Assembly (NCBI RefSeq): GCF_001999965.1
Contig: NZ_CP019646.1
Location: 310,001-374,000 of the forward strand
Source: Limihaloglobus sulfuriphilus
GTDB lineage: Bacteria > Planctomycetota > Phycisphaerae > Sedimentisphaerales > Sedimentisphaeraceae
Direction of reading: 5' to 3'
DNA length: 64,000 nt
Below are positions 10,371 to 55,052 of the stretch, piece by piece (position 1 is the first letter of the stretch; every line of letters begins with the position of its first letter). The position numbers and the translations under genes are program-made. The notes under the pieces are model-generated. The model saw nothing but the letters and a program-made list of their open reading frames with translations, did not search any database and was not told where the DNA came from.

Positions 10371-10440
10371 TTATTGTATTATAATGTTTAAAAATAGCTA
10401 ATCAATACACAATAAGAGCTTTTTATTGCACAATAATGAT
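10371..10440. promoter_or_regulatory. Divergent control region with two CACAATAA direct repeats
   Basis: The octamer CACAATAA occurs at 10408-10415 and 10429-10436, exactly 21 bases apart on the same face of the helix, a spacing typical of the paired half-sites of AraC-family activators. The right copy also forms an inverted repeat, TTATTG-CA-CAATAA (10423-10436). A TATAAT box is at 10380-10385. The right site overlaps the regulator's own start, so autoregulation is likely. A related segment lies at 27295-27367. Confidence 0.5.
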
Positions 10441-11382
10441 ATGTTCAGATATGTAAGAACAAAATCAGAAAGATGCCGCTGTCAGGCGATTAACCTTTTA
10501 CATGAGGGAAAGTGTTTTTTTCCTGTTATTCATCACGCCGCGGTTGACCAGAACAAGGTTTTGGGGGAGCGTTTCACACTGGGGGTTCATACTCATGAAG
10601 TTTATCACCTTAACCTATATACCAAAACAGCGGGTGAATTTCTCATTGACGATGAGTTCCACCCCGCCGAGACTGGTTCATTGGTTATAGTTTCGCCCTG
10701 GGAGAAACATGACTTTGTGACCCGATGCAGTTCTTTTGAATATTCTGAGATTACATTTTCATTTTTCGCAAATGACTCCGAAACCCTGAATATTCCCTTC
10801 CAGGAGCTTCTTTCACTCTATACAGGTACTGAGATAAAGTTGAAATCCGGCCGGCTGAAGCTGGATGCCCGTCAAATAAGCCAGTTTGTCTCTATTCTTT
10901 CCCGTATTATTGATTTTCTGGAAAGTAAAACTGAGATCGGTGAATTCAATGCTTACAGGACACTCGCCTCTCTTATAGATTTCATTATCCTCAATGTATG
11001 CGAGCTTGACAGTAAACAGCCTTCAAACGAAAACCCTGCAAACATTGTCAAAAGCTACATAGACGGCCATTTCATAGAGAATATAAGTTTGAGGACTTTA
11101 GCCGAAATCAGCTATCTCTCTGAAGGGCATATCATAAAGCTGTTCAAAAAAAGTTTCAAAACTACGCCGTTGAACTACCAGACAAATCTACGTATCGAAG
11201 CGGCTAAGACGCTTCTGAAATGTTCAAACCTGACCTGTTCGCAGATAGCAAAACGTATTGGATACGATAATAACCATTATTTCCATCGCCTATTCAAAAA
11301 GAACGTCGGTATTACGCCAAAACAATATCGGAATAGTTATGTTAAAGGGCAGGGGCTTAAAAAGAAAAAACAAAACATTTAA
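10426..11382 (+). CDS. AraC-family transcriptional regulator
   Basis: A 318-residue regulator with an N-terminal cupin-type sensing region (about residues 35-130; HTHEVYHLNLYTK, then GEFLIDDEFHPAETGSLVIV) and a C-terminal double helix-turn-helix (about 205-310) with ISLRTLAEISYLSEGHIIKLFKKS and the signature IAKRIGYDNNHYFHRLFKKN. Such proteins bind a sugar and activate utilisation genes. The start is probably TTG at 10426 (AAGAG seven bases upstream); the alternative is ATG at 10441. It is first of a plus-strand operon with only 26 bases to the next gene, and it is divergent from the prepilin-like gene. Confidence 0.9.
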   Translation: MHNNDMFRYVRTKSERCRCQAINLLHEGKCFFPVIHHAAVDQNKVLGERFTLGVHTHEVYHLNLYTKTAGEFLIDDEFHPAETGSLVIVSPWEKHDFVTRCSSFEYSEITFSFFANDSETLNIPFQELLSLYTGTEIKLKSGRLKLDARQISQFVSILSRIIDFLESKTEIGEFNAYRTLASLIDFIILNVCELDSKQPSNENPANIVKSYIDGHFIENISLRTLAEISYLSEGHIIKLFKKSFKTTPLNYQTNLRIEAAKTLLKCSNLTCSQIAKRIGYDNNHYFHRLFKKNVGITPKQYRNSYVKGQGLKKKKQNI

Positions 11383-39743: not shown

Positions 39744-40400
39744 TTACTCCTGCTTGTCCTGGGGTTTTTCAGGGGTTGATTTATCTGATGAATCCTCTGC
39801 CGTTTCGCCGGCGTCATCATTAGAATCATTTTCAATTTTATTTACTATAACCATAGCCGGACGGAGTACTTTTTCTTCTATGAGATACCCCTTTTGATAT
39901 TCAACCAATACAGTATTGTCCGGTTTTTCGGGGTCACTCTGCTGCATCATAGCCTGATGTTTTACAGGGTCAAACTCTTCGCCGGCAGATTGCATCTGGA
40001 CTACACCATGGGCCTTGAGTGTGTCTAAAAAGTTTTTATATACCAGCTTAATTCCCTCTATTATTTTGTCTGCATCATGATTTTGTTTTGCTGATGCGAG
40101 GGTATGTTCAAAGTTATCCATGCTCGAGAGCATAGACTTCAGGATAGATTCCTTCTGATAGGAGATCCCGTCCTGTATCTGCCTTGGAACACGTTTCTGG
40201 AGGTTGTCATATTCAGCGCAGACACGATGATATTTATCCCTCATGGCAGCGAGCTCAGCCTCAAGCTGCTGAATCTTTTCTTCAAACTCGTTTAATTCAG
40301 ATTTTTTATTTTTGTCTGAATCCTTAACCTCACTCCGGGTTTTGGCATCTTCGTGAGTTTTGGCTTCTTTATTATGTTTTTTCTTGCTCATAATATTCAT
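39744..40400 (-). CDS. grpE: Nucleotide exchange factor GrpE
   Basis: A 218-residue GrpE, the factor that releases ADP from DnaK. A charged N terminus (Lys, Glu rich, about 1-35) is followed by a long coiled coil (about 35-90, [18 protein letters not shown]) and the C-terminal beta domain with [19 protein letters not shown]. Its ATG overlaps the dnaJ stop by four bases (ATGA), so translation is coupled; ATG 40391 is an alternative start. The dnaK partner is not in this window. Confidence 0.93.
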
Positions 40401-50625: not shown

Positions 50626-50695
50626 GGCAAATACTGCAATTCACCTCAGCGGGACAATGCCACCGGCTGCAATTTCTATTGACAGTAATTGTGCC
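50626..50695 (+). repeat. Left copy of the 70-bp direct repeat flanking the TrlF-like cassette
   Basis: Three blocks match the right copy at 53746-53817 in the same order and strand: GGCAAATACTGC (50626-50637, 12 of 12), AATGCCACCGGCTG (50656-50669, 13 of 14) and TTGACAGTAATTGTGCC (50679-50695, 16 of 17). It lies 35 bases past the stop of 47327-50590. Unlike the right copy, no good -10 box follows the TTGACA. Confidence 0.7.
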
Positions 50696-50792
50696 TATTA
50701 ATGAAAGTTTTTACCGTAAAAAGAGGTTTGCCCCTTCAATTCTTCTCCTGTCATTAGATGTTTCACAAAACAAAGAAACTTTACCCCTTTCA

Positions 50793-51137
50793 CTATACCT
50801 CGGTTGGATCATCTTCGCCTGCATCCTCGGCATCTTCCTGTGATGGGTCATCTCGATATGTCTTATATTCCGACAAATACAGTCGCTCTGATTCATCTTT
50901 GAACTCCTGTCTTCTCTCTTTGATATTTTGCAGTTTCTCGAATACACTTTTGTAGATGATCTTATGTGCTTGATTCTTGAGAGTATCATCGTTGAACTCA
51001 TCAAACTCCACCTCTTCCTCATCCAGCGTTAGATTCACTAGCCTTAGAATATCATCTTTCGTGATCTTATCTACGGTAGCAAAATCGTCTCGGGTTACGA
51101 AATATCCTTTATTGTCATCAATTTTTAATAGCTTCAT
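50793..51137 (-). CDS. Small acidic partner protein of the TrlF-like ATPase
   Basis: A 114-residue protein starting MKLLKIDDNKGYFV; I use ATG 51137 because AAGGAG lies ten bases upstream, rather than the open frame from 51179. It is strongly acidic in the middle (DEEEVEFDEFNDD) and at the end (DDPSQEDAEDAGEDDPTEV), with a charged helical stretch between (KSVFEKLQNIKERRQEFKDE). It begins 20 bases inside the end of the ATPase gene, so the two are coupled. I know no function for it; an inhibitor, antitoxin or DNA mimic that restrains the ATPase is one possibility. Confidence 0.6.
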   Translation of the reverse strand: MKLLKIDDNKGYFVTRDDFATVDKITKDDILRLVNLTLDEEEVEFDEFNDDTLKNQAHKIIYKSVFEKLQNIKERRQEFKDESERLYLSEYKTYRDDPSQEDAEDAGEDDPTEV

Positions 51138-53142
51138 ATCCTTGTCTCCTTTTAATATAGGCGTCATGGCCTGCCTCAAGTGAGTCCAGCATTACCTCAT
51201 GGTTGTTAATTGTTGTACCGTCCAGTGACTTAAGTTCTTGGTCTGTTGGGTGACCAGAATACAACTTGTACACTGGCCCTCCTTCTTTAATTTCTTTTTT
51301 TGCGTACAGTAAATAATCAGCTCCGACTGAAGCACCGACTGTATTGTTATGCGTAACCACAACTACTGGCATTGATTTTGAGATATCTTTAATGATATTG
51401 TTGACGTCGCTATTGAGAAACAGGTTATCAAATGAAGATTCCGGCTCATCAATCAGTAAGAAGTCGTGATTTTGCGAATCTTTTATTTTCCGCAGCAGCC
51501 TAAATTCAGATCGCTCACCACCTGACACCTCGACTCCATCTCGATTTAGAATCCTATAGCTTATCTTTGCAAACAATTTGTAGAGTTCGGATCGCATCAG
51601 GTTCTCATCGGCCAGTAGTGTTTGCAAATAAAGATAAGGTTTTCCATATTGCTTGAACTGTTCTCGGAATGCTCCCTTTCCACTGTTTGCTTCCTTTATT
51701 TCTCCAGCGCCTGCAAATGCACCCTTTTCTACAACAACGCTGAACGCTTGAATGCTTTCTTTCCAGATTGTTGCCTCCTTCTGCAAAAATTTGACAATCT
51801 CTGAAAATCTATCGACTTTCCTCTTTTCGATACTTACGCGATACAAGTCTATATCTTCGATAGGCTCACTCGCTGATCGTAATTGCAGACTTTCTTTAAT
51901 ATCTCGTATTAAAGAGTTCACTAGCTCCTTCTTCTTTGTTTCAAGTTTCTTTGACCGAAGTAGTTCGATCAATTCACATATAAGCCGCTTCATGGAATTA
52001 AGGTCTATATGCTTTTCAATAATACCCCGGAATTCAACATTTTCTATTACTTGTTGAACCGATTCAATCAAATCACGCAACGTCTTGTCTTCACTTATAG
52101 AAAACAATGATTCATCAAATAGGGCTGTTTTGGAATAGACATCTCTCCTGTCTGCGTCCTCAGCGGCCCTGAGAAGAGTATCAACATATTTCTCAATTGA
52201 TCGTTCATTCGCCTGCAAGTCAACACTCATAACATCATTCAAAACCACCTTAAATTCAGACAAATAGTCTTCGAGAATCTGACTTTGATTATTTTGAAGA
52301 TGTTTTTTAAAATCGCGTTTGTCTTTAGCGTCGTCTTTCTGAACCAATGAAAACTGTTCGATATACTTTACATTGTTATTTAATTTATTGATCTTATTCA
52401 ATGTCCAGGTTTTTCCGGATGACCTTTCGCCGAGAAGGACATTCAATCCCGTTGACAACATCTGGCCATCATCAAAGACCTGAAACAGATTATTCCCTTT
52501 GGTTTCAGATAGAGCAACCTTCCCCTTGTCTTTCAGGCATGTTTTTATAGCGTTTAAAGTCAACTCACCGCAGTCTATAAAAGTTTGTCTTGTGGGGAGA
52601 CTGTCTAACTCGTCAGATATTCTCTCATCGCTAAATAAAACGGGAGTAAGCATTGTCTTATCTTTAATGGCGCGGATAAATTTCTTGGGGCTATCTACCT
52701 CACCAACTGATACGTAACTCGCAATCCACTTTAAAGCTTCCCCTTGGATTGCCGGCCCTTTTTGGTAATGCGGTATCACCAAATAATCATTTAGATCATT
52801 AAATATTGTTTCAAGCTCATCGACAGTAATGCGGTTTTCAATTTGGGTGATTTTTTGAGCAACTAATTTAGCTTTGCCTTCGAAGTCTTCCAGGTCAGTT
52901 GAATCGCTGATTATCAAAATATGACCACAGTCTAGGCTAATCTCTATTCCCGGAAAAACAACAACTCCTAATGCTTTGCTAATCATATTAAACTGCTCTC
53001 CATCAAACATATTATGATTTGTTATTGCAATAGCATCCAGCTTTGCTTTGGAGATGTATTTTTCTAGGTTTGCTATATCAAAGTTAAAATCACTATCCCA
53101 GTCAGTTGATATTGTATGAATATGTAAGTCAATTTTTTTCAA
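51118..53142 (-). CDS. PHP-domain ABC/SMC-type ATPase (TrlF-like)
   Basis: A 674-residue protein starting with TTG (AAGGAG six bases upstream). The N-terminal PHP phosphoesterase has DLHIHT (5-10), AITNHN (39-44), FPGIEIS (63-69), VIPHY (122-126) and ALSETKG (210-216), a full set of possible metal ligands. The ABC/SMC-like ATPase has Walker A LLGERSSGKT (236-245), a coiled-coil region (about 265-530), signature SGGERSEF (540-547), Walker B FLLIDEPESSFD (561-572) and an H-loop VVVTHNN (594-600). This PHP-plus-ABC layout is known from predicted conflict systems and is named TrlF family by annotators. Base composition is lower than around it (28-40 percent G+C in lines sampled by eye against 52 percent in a neighbouring gene line), indicating transfer. 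Confidence 0.82.
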   Translation of the reverse strand: MKKIDLHIHTISTDWDSDFNFDIANLEKYISKAKLDAIAITNHNMFDGEQFNMISKALGVVVFPGIEISLDCGHILIISDSTDLEDFEGKAKLVAQKITQIENRITVDELETIFNDLNDYLVIPHYQKGPAIQGEALKWIASYVSVGEVDSPKKFIRAIKDKTMLTPVLFSDERISDELDSLPTRQTFIDCGELTLNAIKTCLKDKGKVALSETKGNNLFQVFDDGQMLSTGLNVLLGERSSGKTWTLNKINKLNNNVKYIEQFSLVQKDDAKDKRDFKKHLQNNQSQILEDYLSEFKVVLNDVMSVDLQANERSIEKYVDTLLRAAEDADRRDVYSKTALFDESLFSISEDKTLRDLIESVQQVIENVEFRGIIEKHIDLNSMKRLICELIELLRSKKLETKKKELVNSLIRDIKESLQLRSASEPIEDIDLYRVSIEKRKVDRFSEIVKFLQKEATIWKESIQAFSVVVEKGAFAGAGEIKEANSGKGAFREQFKQYGKPYLYLQTLLADENLMRSELYKLFAKISYRILNRDGVEVSGGERSEFRLLRKIKDSQNHDFLLIDEPESSFDNLFLNSDVNNIIKDISKSMPVVVVTHNNTVGASVGADYLLYAKKEIKEGGPVYKLYSGHPTDQELKSLDGTTINNHEVMLDSLEAGHDAYIKRRQGYEAIKN

Positions 53143-53189
53143 GGGCAGCTCCTTTTTAAGATTCCGCTGGCCAGCTACGGACCTTTTTT

Positions 53190-53204
53190 CCGCCCTGTGG
53201 GCGG
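53190..53204. promoter_or_regulatory. GC hairpin in the leader of the TrlF-like gene
   Basis: CCGCCC and GGGCGG pair perfectly around a 3-base loop, 48 bases before the TTG start (minus strand). On the plus strand it is followed by TTATTTT, like a terminator for incoming transcription; on the minus strand it is a leader hairpin. No other gene uses it. Confidence 0.5.
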
Positions 53205-53745
53205 TTATTTTCTCGTAACTCCATTATTTATAAGACTTACCCGCCTTTTTGCTTGTTTAATCTGTCGCATATAACGCTTACTTTGCCTTGGTTGTTTTGG
53301 TTCAGCGTAAATTGGACAAAATCACTTTTTAATTTAAAGAGGGAATTAAGGGGTGAAGTCTCTTTTTTTTTGCAATACATCACATATGTCCTTTATAAAC
53401 AAAGTTTTACAGCTTAAAATCTGGCCATATTTTAAAGTGTTATTCATATCATTCCTGTTCTGGTCTTCCCTGCCCGACATTCACAGCGGACAGGAATACC
53501 CACTCTACCAATGTCAACCAAGACGGTTGACCTGCTTAGGGTCATACGGCCTTTGTTATCATAACAATACATTGTCGGCATTATCGCATATAAAACCCTT
53601 ATTGTCAACAGAATTATACTGGTTACTGCCGGCGTTTACGCTATAGCTGTCAGTGTTGGGAGAGAAATAAAGGGCCACGGGTTCTTTTAGTTGTAAAGTA
53701 CTAAATTACAATAATTTATAAAATAAAGTACCGTCAATTGTTCTT
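53205..53745. other. Intergenic region between the TrlF-like gene and the right repeat
   Basis: No convincing gene. An open frame at 53353-53646 on the plus strand lacks a ribosome site and any domain. The minus strand near 53570-53690 reads as a short protein-like stretch (LYFSPNTDSYSVNAGSNQYN, then VDNKGFICDNADN) broken by stops, which might be a decayed secreted-protein gene. Near 53250-53265 GCATATAACGC resembles an integron attC core end, but its partner is not found. AT-rich runs flank it. Confidence 0.3.
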
Positions 53746-53817
53746 GGCAAATACTGCCGTTACCGCCCCAGCAGGTGAATGCCGCCGGCTGATATTTAAA
53801 TTGACAGTAAGTGTGCC
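53746..53817 (+). repeat. Right copy of the 70-bp direct repeat
   Basis: Matches 50626-50695 in three blocks: GGCAAATACTGC (53746-53757), AATGCCGCCGGCTG (53778-53791) and TTGACAGTAAGTGTGCC (53801-53817). The spacing between copies is 3.12 kb and encloses the TrlF-like pair. The last block provides the -35 box of the sialidase-like gene's promoter. Confidence 0.7.
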
Positions 53818-53828
53818 GATGTTATAGT
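53801..53828 (+). promoter_or_regulatory. Sigma-70-like promoter of the sialidase-like gene
   Basis: Perfect TTGACA (53801-53806), 16 bases, TATAGT (53823-53828), 42 bases before the ATG at 53871. The ribosome site is AGGAAGG. Confidence 0.65.
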
Positions 53829-53870: not shown

Positions 53871-55052
53871 ATGTATTCAAAAAGATTGTTCGTAGTACTT
53901 GTTTTGGCCGGCTTGGCTTTCGCCGTCGCCGGAAGTGAGGGTTATATAGTAAGATGGTCGGCTCCCTGGCCGGATCCGGCAAAGCCCGATGCCGGACTGC
54001 CTCTGCTGGCGGGCGTTAAACACTATGAGATTTTCCACGGCAGCAGTGAAATGGGAATGTACAACCACGGTCCAGTTTCAATCTGCAATAACGGCGTGTT
54101 TTATGTGATGTGGTATTCTCATAAGAACTGCGAAGATGCTTCCGGCCAGAGAATCCTGTTTGCAGACTCGCCGGATGGCATGCAGTGGGCTGACACCGAA
54201 ATCCTCTTTGATTCGCTCAGCCCGTTCGCCTATCGCGGGGTGGAGGGTATAAACATGTTTCCTTCGGGTTTCTACACCGTCGGGGACCGGCTGTATGCAA
54301 TCGCCAGGGTGAACTATATAAAATGGCCGCAAGGCCCTGTCACCGAAGGCGGTTCGGTTTATGAGCAAATCGGCTACCTTGCCAGGTGTATCAAAACGCA
54401 GGGAACATCTGGAAAGGCATTCTGGCTTCTCGAAGAACTGCCGGAGGATGAGAGCCTTCTGAAATACCCGTGTTATCCGGATACGAACACTCAAACAGCG
54501 GCGGACGCCCTGGAGCTGCTGGAAAATATCCGCAACAGGGGCAGGCGTAAAGGTAAATATCCAGAAGCCCCTGAGGGAGTCAAACTCTGCGAGGACAGTA
54601 TATACACCCGCGGCGACGGCCGGCAGGTAAGGCTTTTCAGGGATGACGGCCGCTCACTGCGTATGTTCGCGTCTATAAGAAGCTCTGAAGATGATAAATG
54701 GTCAAGGCCCGTCAAGACGAATATTCCCGATAGCTGCGCAATGACCGTCAGCGGGCGGCTGTCCGACGGCAGGGTTTATATGATAGGCAACAATATCCCA
54801 AAACTATGGCTTCGCAGCCCGCTGTTAATTACCCTTTCGGATGACGGCGCGGATTTTGATCAGTCATGGGTAATTCGCTGCTGTGATCCAGAGCTTCGTG
54901 AGAAAAAATCCATGGACGGCAAAGGCCCCGGTTTTCAATACCCCAATGTGTGCATGTCTAAGAGCGATATGTGGGTTTTTTATTCTGTCGGCAAAGAAGA
55001 TATTGGCGTAACACGCATTCCACTGGAAACACTCCCGCAAAAAAGTGATTAA
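53871..55052 (+). CDS. Secreted sialidase-like (BNR propeller) protein
   Basis: A 393-residue exported protein (signal peptide to about residue 21). The pattern fits a six-bladed beta-propeller of the exo-alpha-sialidase-like group: VFYVMWYSHK, LFADSPDGMQW, and near the end GFQYPNVCMSKSDMWVFYSV followed by KEDIGVTRIPL, the usual last blade. Many planctomycete members have unknown substrates, so sialic acid is not assured. It has its own promoter overlapping the right direct repeat. Confidence 0.75.
   Translation: MYSKRLFVVLVLAGLAFAVAGSEGYIVRWSAPWPDPAKPDAGLPLLAGVKHYEIFHGSSEMGMYNHGPVSICNNGVFYVMWYSHKNCEDASGQRILFADSPDGMQWADTEILFDSLSPFAYRGVEGINMFPSGFYTVGDRLYAIARVNYIKWPQGPVTEGGSVYEQIGYLARCIKTQGTSGKAFWLLEELPEDESLLKYPCYPDTNTQTAADALELLENIRNRGRRKGKYPEAPEGVKLCEDSIYTRGDGRQVRLFRDDGRSLRMFASIRSSEDDKWSRPVKTNIPDSCAMTVSGRLSDGRVYMIGNNIPKLWLRSPLLITLSDDGADFDQSWVIRCCDPELREKKSMDGKGPGFQYPNVCMSKSDMWVFYSVGKEDIGVTRIPLETLPQKSD

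Follow-up and report, generated by a model that had tools for sequence, protein, structure and literature searches.

A 64,000-nucleotide window of the Limihaloglobus sulfuriphilus genome contains two overlapping genes on the minus strand, one encoding a PHP-ATPase fusion (gene A) and the other a small acidic protein (gene B), in a stretch of low G+C content that lies between two similar copies of a short sequence. The first-pass annotation regarded this pair as a candidate defence module that had arrived as a unit, bounded by the repeats. The locus thus raises the questions of what the two genes encode, whether they spread horizontally, and whether their base composition and the flanking repeats tell how they came to be there. 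Positions below are those of the window unless the host contig is named.

Gene A (51118-53142, minus strand) encodes a protein of 674 amino acids, in which a PHP phosphoesterase is fused to an SMC/RecN-like ABC ATPase; it begins with a TTG start codon, upstream of which lies a ribosome-binding-like AAGGAG. The PHP domain (residues 1 to ~215; 52498-53142, minus strand) carries the DxHxH motif, D16, TNH (41-43), E67, H74, H125 and SDxR (171-174), and the ABC/SMC-like ATPase (residues ~216-674; 51121-52497, minus strand) carries a G238-x4-GKT P-loop, Q263, SGGE (540-543), DE (565-566) and H598. An AlphaFold2 model built from 64 homologues reached a mean pLDDT of 88.7. In structure comparisons, the PHP fold was nearest to Endonuclease Q (Z 15.9), TM0559 (14.6) and RNase AM (11.8), and Foldseek matched the ATPase part to RecN, MukB, JetC and Smc; the search ranked PHP and ABC families alone, and the absence of other families is uninformative. 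Endonuclease Q, RNase AM and TM0559 have the PHP fold in common with A, but not the fused ABC ATPase. RecN, MukB, JetC and Rad50 share with A the ABC/SMC-like head with its P-loop, Q-loop, signature, Walker B and H-loop, but they possess a long coiled coil, where A has a short helical insert in the head (about residues 270-510), in addition to its N-terminal PHP domain. A PriC match in A, falling in a helical stretch and scoring 23.5 against a cut-off of 23.3, was treated as chance, and an Rfam search returned zero matches.

The catalytic ABC motifs of A are all invariant or nearly so among the 64 homologues, with G238, G243-K244, Q263, SGG, DE and H598 being invariant. In the PHP domain, H7, H9, T41-N42-H43, E67, H125 and D172 are present in 64/64 sequences, and D16 (63/64), H74 (58/64) and R174 (62/64) are nearly invariant. 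The ligand set of PHP enzymes usually ends in SDxH. The A family has SDxR at this place in 62 of the 64 proteins, and TNH replaces the usual TDH in all of them. A therefore has a PHP site that keeps most of the usual metal ligands, with an invariant N42 and a nearly invariant R174.

PADLOC assigned A to PDC-M49A (975 bits, residues 1-674 of 674) and the adjoining B to PDC-M49B (114 bits, model positions 1-95 of 97). Since both genes match, the locus joins an already catalogued, uncharacterised candidate type; PDC-M49 comprises the same two genes in the same arrangement, and no difference from it is detectable at the window locus. The PDC-x systems are described (PMC11811056) as an unpublished candidate set from Payne et al. 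2021, and a literature search for experiments on PDC-M49 found none. When tried in a single native host, two other PADLOC candidates, PDC-M63 and PDC-S04, were inactive (PMC12409345).

A profile comparison by hhalign connected the A family to Ppl. Aligned with five Ppl-model proteins of the same phylum, the family gave a probability of 99.1 and an E-value of 1.3e-18 over residues 3-255, co-linear across the PHP domain and the P-loop, and the likeness extends to the overall order of an N-terminal PHP domain, a linker and a C-terminal ATPase part. The PADLOC Ppl model itself did not match A at E <= 0.1. There are also clear differences: A has 674 residues against about 920-945 in Ppl, with a shorter ATPase part; Ppl is a single-gene system, whereas A is accompanied by B in 77 of 80 loci; and the TDH and SDxH of Ppl, which the five same-phylum proteins retain, are TNH and SDxR in A. 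The TrlF family likewise combines a PHP domain with an AAA-like ATPase, and the NCBIfam TrlF model (NF045780) scored 78.2 bits on A, far under its curated cut-off of 350; a TrlF protein from the relative G012 has MDYW at the place of TNH and keeps SDAH. With respect to MADS, PADLOC found a partial mad3 match in A (29.8 bits), and the adjacent genes belong to DUF3604, BNR-repeat and CBM96 families. The proposed TrlF-like fusion of a PHP domain with an ABC/SMC-type ATPase was borne out by motifs, structure and hhalign as a TrlF/Ppl-like PHP-ATPase. By sequence, the A-B pair is an uncharacterised member of PDC-M49 and looks like a relative of the anti-phage nuclease Ppl.

Gene B (50793-51137, minus strand; PDC-M49B) encodes 114 amino acids from an ATG start that lies within the end of A, overlapping it by 20 nt, with AAAGGAG upstream. 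A candidate sigma-70-type promoter for the A-B operon is found at 53580-53608 on the minus strand (TTGACA-17-GATAAT, 11/12 of the consensus), the total number of such matches being no more than in shuffled sequence. The view of B as a small acidic protein coupled to the PHP-ATPase held well beyond this genome. Its pI is 4.4, compared with a median of 4.8 and a maximum of 5.4 in 61 relatives, and a B gene directly follows A in 77 of the 80 homologous loci, across many phyla. These loci came from a scan of genome contigs with an alignment query, a single-sequence query having found none. Of the three loci in which no B follows A, two lie at contig ends and one has a truncated A. Among the 77 coupled loci, 67 show an overlap of 20 nt and eight one of 23 nt, and two Bacilli MAGs have ATA at the position of the B start. 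This strict coupling suggests that B is a stoichiometric subunit. B had no credible relative in Pfam or the PDB, including no match to a Pfam antitoxin, and its single-sequence structure model is helical and of low confidence (pLDDT 57), with no DNA-binding fold seen. B may be a brake or a structural subunit.

The distribution of the pair is very patchy. A was present in 3 of the 98 relatives' genomes searched, the window's own genome included, and a profile search of a phylum sample detected it in 2 of 392 genomes. The nearest relative, G014, belongs to the same order as the host; in the A tree, the window protein lies beside a Sedimentisphaerales MAG, and its next neighbours come from Omnitrophota, Hydrogenophaga, Fermentimonas, Hydrogenedentota and a Planctomycetota MAG. 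A relatives were found in 56 plasmid records, 48 of them typed as mobilizable or conjugative, and PDC-M49 occurs on enterococcal, staphylococcal and rhizobial plasmids and in many phyla. Relatives' loci also lie at prophage edges, and A relatives are carried on two viral contigs; an annotated phage collection contained no A relative. The neighbourhoods of A in the 80 loci, given as plain tallies without a formal control set and with clusters named by inspection, include HsdR-like (11), HsdM (6), HsdS (4), Fic (8), resolvase/integrase (8) and C5 methyltransferase (4) genes. With one HsdR per 4-Mb genome and random placement, we would expect well under one HsdR in the flanks of 80 loci. Family scans of the immediate neighbours matched REase_I, MTase_I, IIG, DrmA/DrmD, BrxH, MADS and SoFic models; some of these models also hit helicases. 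In G230, by inspection, the pair has HsdR-like and YgjP-like genes on one side and an ArdA-like protein on the other, and an AbiH-family gene lies within a few kb of one Rhizobium copy. A homologue on a Rhizobium plasmid is 43% identical. Given the restriction, plasmid and prophage settings and the tree that mixes phyla, horizontal transfer is well supported. The earlier proposals of horizontal transfer and of a defence role both gained from these data, the latter as a candidate role: the genes are PADLOC's PDC-M49A/B, and the search for the pair beside other defence genes found type I restriction genes adjoining it in other genomes.

Some of the loci collected here are worth recording in their own right. 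On one viral contig (L103:8001-15502), tail-like genes are followed by A and then by HsdR-M-S-like genes, as judged by inspection, an arrangement of prophage-borne defence cargo. On another (L105:8001-10127), a distant PHP-ATPase of 709 residues shows a two-part PDC-M49A match together with HEC-02A/AriA-like ATPase matches, and may represent a further branch. A DUF2130 gene adjoins A-B in a Sedimentisphaerales genome (L023:3230-4513), and a similar gene lies beside a PHP-ATPase of the TrlF family in a second genome of that order (L135:34-1278); a functional link between DUF2130 and PHP-ATPases is possible. Near-identical A genes occur in a Melainabacteria MAG and in Bacteroides congonensis (L081/L084), reflecting either recent transfer or a binning error.

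The base composition of the locus is indeed unusual for the window. Gene A has a G+C content of 38.3% and a GC3 of 37%, the lowest among the 37 ORFs of 200 aa or more in the window, for which the means are 49.3% +/- 3.4 and 54.8% +/- 5.7, respectively. Likelihood change points at 50670 and 53905 delimit a block with 38.6% G+C inside and 52.3% outside; the second of these change points places the right edge of the block past repeat copy 2, within the AT-rich leader of the following gene. Two other window genes, at 10426-11382 and 39744-40400, are also low in G+C (40-41%). Across the homologous loci, A was below its flanking genes in G+C in all 66 with enough flank, by a mean of 9.8 points, and in GC3 in 61 of 63, with its GC3 tracking that of the host (r = 0.86). 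Low G+C is therefore a family trait of A and does not date its arrival: the compositional contrast noted in the first-pass annotation is real, but its use as a sign of arrival is not upheld. The surroundings consist of a DUF3604/dockerin protein, a BNR-repeat protein, a CBM96/PEP-CTERM protein and a purA-uppS pair (purA and uppS by inspection), and among the genes immediately beside the window pair, no other defence gene and no recombinase was recognised. The gene order after purA-uppS differs in all four same-family genomes compared, and the locus is not syntenic; no empty site was found in them.

The two repeat copies, at 50626-50698 and 53746-53820, are on the plus strand and about 3,120 bp apart from start to start. 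They align over 75 columns with 79% identity (E about 4e-12 in the window), so that the flanking pair described earlier does exist, on one strand and about 3.12 kb apart, but as imperfect copies of a sequence that also occurs elsewhere. A sequence model of the element, from whose building the copy at 85873 was left out, gave eight genome matches at E < 1e-6, all on the same strand and six of them away from the locus (host contig 1: 85873, 360626, 363746, 466288, 2052093, 2269490, 2270961 and 2356644), and none at that threshold in G002, G004, G007, G014 or G025. The repeats belong to an intergenic element of about 75 bp that is specific to this lineage and present in eight or more full or half copies. 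Its right half contains TTGACAGTAAG and its left half GGCAAATACTGCCGTTACCG, and several copies combine TTGACAGTAAG with a -10-like hexamer. The second window copy has TTGACA with TATAGT at 53801-53828, a promoter-like site before the plus-strand gene 53871-55052, and the first has a degenerate -10 region. Since convergent genes flank some of the copies or half-copies, the element is more than a promoter. Elsewhere in the host genome (2269490-2270999), a gene for a secreted protein is preceded by a right half-element and followed by a left one, with 1.4 kb between the two halves. The stretch of DNA that resembles the copy in G014 (81%) covers 50833-53144; it begins inside B, ends at A's start and stops short of the repeats. 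The proposal that the repeats mark the boundaries of a cassette accordingly fails: the repeat, examined as an element that might recur genome-wide, proved to be dispersed in eight or more full or partial copies, of which one carries a promoter-like site, and the similarity to G014 ends near the gene ends, well inside the repeats. A target-site duplication was rejected on the same grounds, as near-identical and unique terminal repeats would be expected, against 79% identity and dispersed copies.

How the pair might work is best approached from Ppl. According to a review, E. coli Ppl is a PHP ssDNA 3'-5' exonuclease; bound NTPs inhibit both its PHP and its NTPase domain, and activation needs nucleotide depletion together with 3'-OH ends (PMC12904381); in S. 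epidermidis, Ppl correlates with phage resistance (PMC13152194). Given the homology between A and Ppl and the intact ATPase motifs, an NTP-gated nuclease is the most likely reading of A. We place about an even chance on the pair being a horizontally mobile, PDC-M49-type anti-phage module that functions as a Ppl relative with two subunits. In such a module, A would dimerise through its SMC/RecN-like heads and would sample nucleic acid, with DNA ends or single strands as the probable targets. NTP bound at the heads and the PHP site, together with the co-translated acidic B, would hold the PHP phosphoesterase quiet in the healthy cell. Infection, through nucleotide depletion or through unusual DNA ends or structures, would release it, and the metal-dependent PHP site would then hydrolyse phosphodiesters of the phage nucleic acid. 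Because TNH is found in all homologues and SDxR in 62 of 64, the PHP chemistry of A may differ from that of Ppl or be lost; the altered site may act on a changed substrate or may have ceased to be catalytic. A more far-reaching version, which we advance tentatively, is that PDC-M49 makes up a branch of its own within the Ppl class, built of two subunits and spread over many phyla. Single-chain NTP control would here have given way to a conserved, remodelled PHP metal centre (N42, R174) and to a dedicated acidic partner tied in by the 20-nt overlap, with another substrate or trigger as the outcome.

The same features can be read in other ways. If A were a toxic nuclease or ATPase and B its bound antitoxin, the loss of B on infection would kill the cell, a form of abortive infection that would suit a small, acidic B that always adjoins and overlaps A and a module found on plasmids. 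However, antitoxin genes usually precede the toxin gene, and B comes after A; the model of B, albeit of low confidence (pLDDT 57), lacks a DNA-binding fold, and Pfam offers no antitoxin match, so that we consider toxin-antitoxin action unlikely. It is more improbable that the PHP domain of A has ceased to be a hydrolase and become a nucleotide or metal sensor, leaving the output to the ATPase with B. The invariant N42 and nearly invariant R174, in place of the corresponding TDH and SDxH residues of Ppl, point in that direction, but the invariance of H7, H9, H43, E67, H125 and D172 among the 64 proteins, and the near-invariance of D16 and H74, are hard to explain without metal chemistry.

The structural matches, with Endonuclease Q (Z 15.9) and RNase AM best for the PHP domain and RecN for the ATPase, would also agree with an enzyme that repairs or processes DNA or RNA and has no defence role. 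Repair genes are usually kept vertically, whereas the pair is found in only 3/98 relatives and 2/392 genomes of the phylum sample, in a tree that mixes phyla, and in plasmid and restriction-island settings; we hold this reading to be quite improbable. As for the mode of arrival, delivery as a repeat-bounded mobile cassette, by target-site duplication or by recombination between element copies, appears the least probable of the explanations weighed here. The two copies do flank the block and are mutual best matches in the genome, but their 79% identity, the six other copies, full or partial, at distant places in the genome, the end of similarity to the closest relative near the gene ends, and the lack of a recognised recombinase among the genes beside the pair all argue against it. 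The preferred reading remains that of a two-subunit, Ppl-related anti-phage module.

To conclude, A-B is a real, horizontally spread defence candidate, and its delivery as a repeat-bounded cassette is unsupported. Low G+C and flanking repeats, taken by themselves, are misleading guides to the manner and timing of a defence module's arrival. The link between PDC-M49 and Ppl, whose mechanism was recently described, gives concrete residues to mutate, and raises a concrete question about the family, namely the role of its obligatory acidic subunit B.
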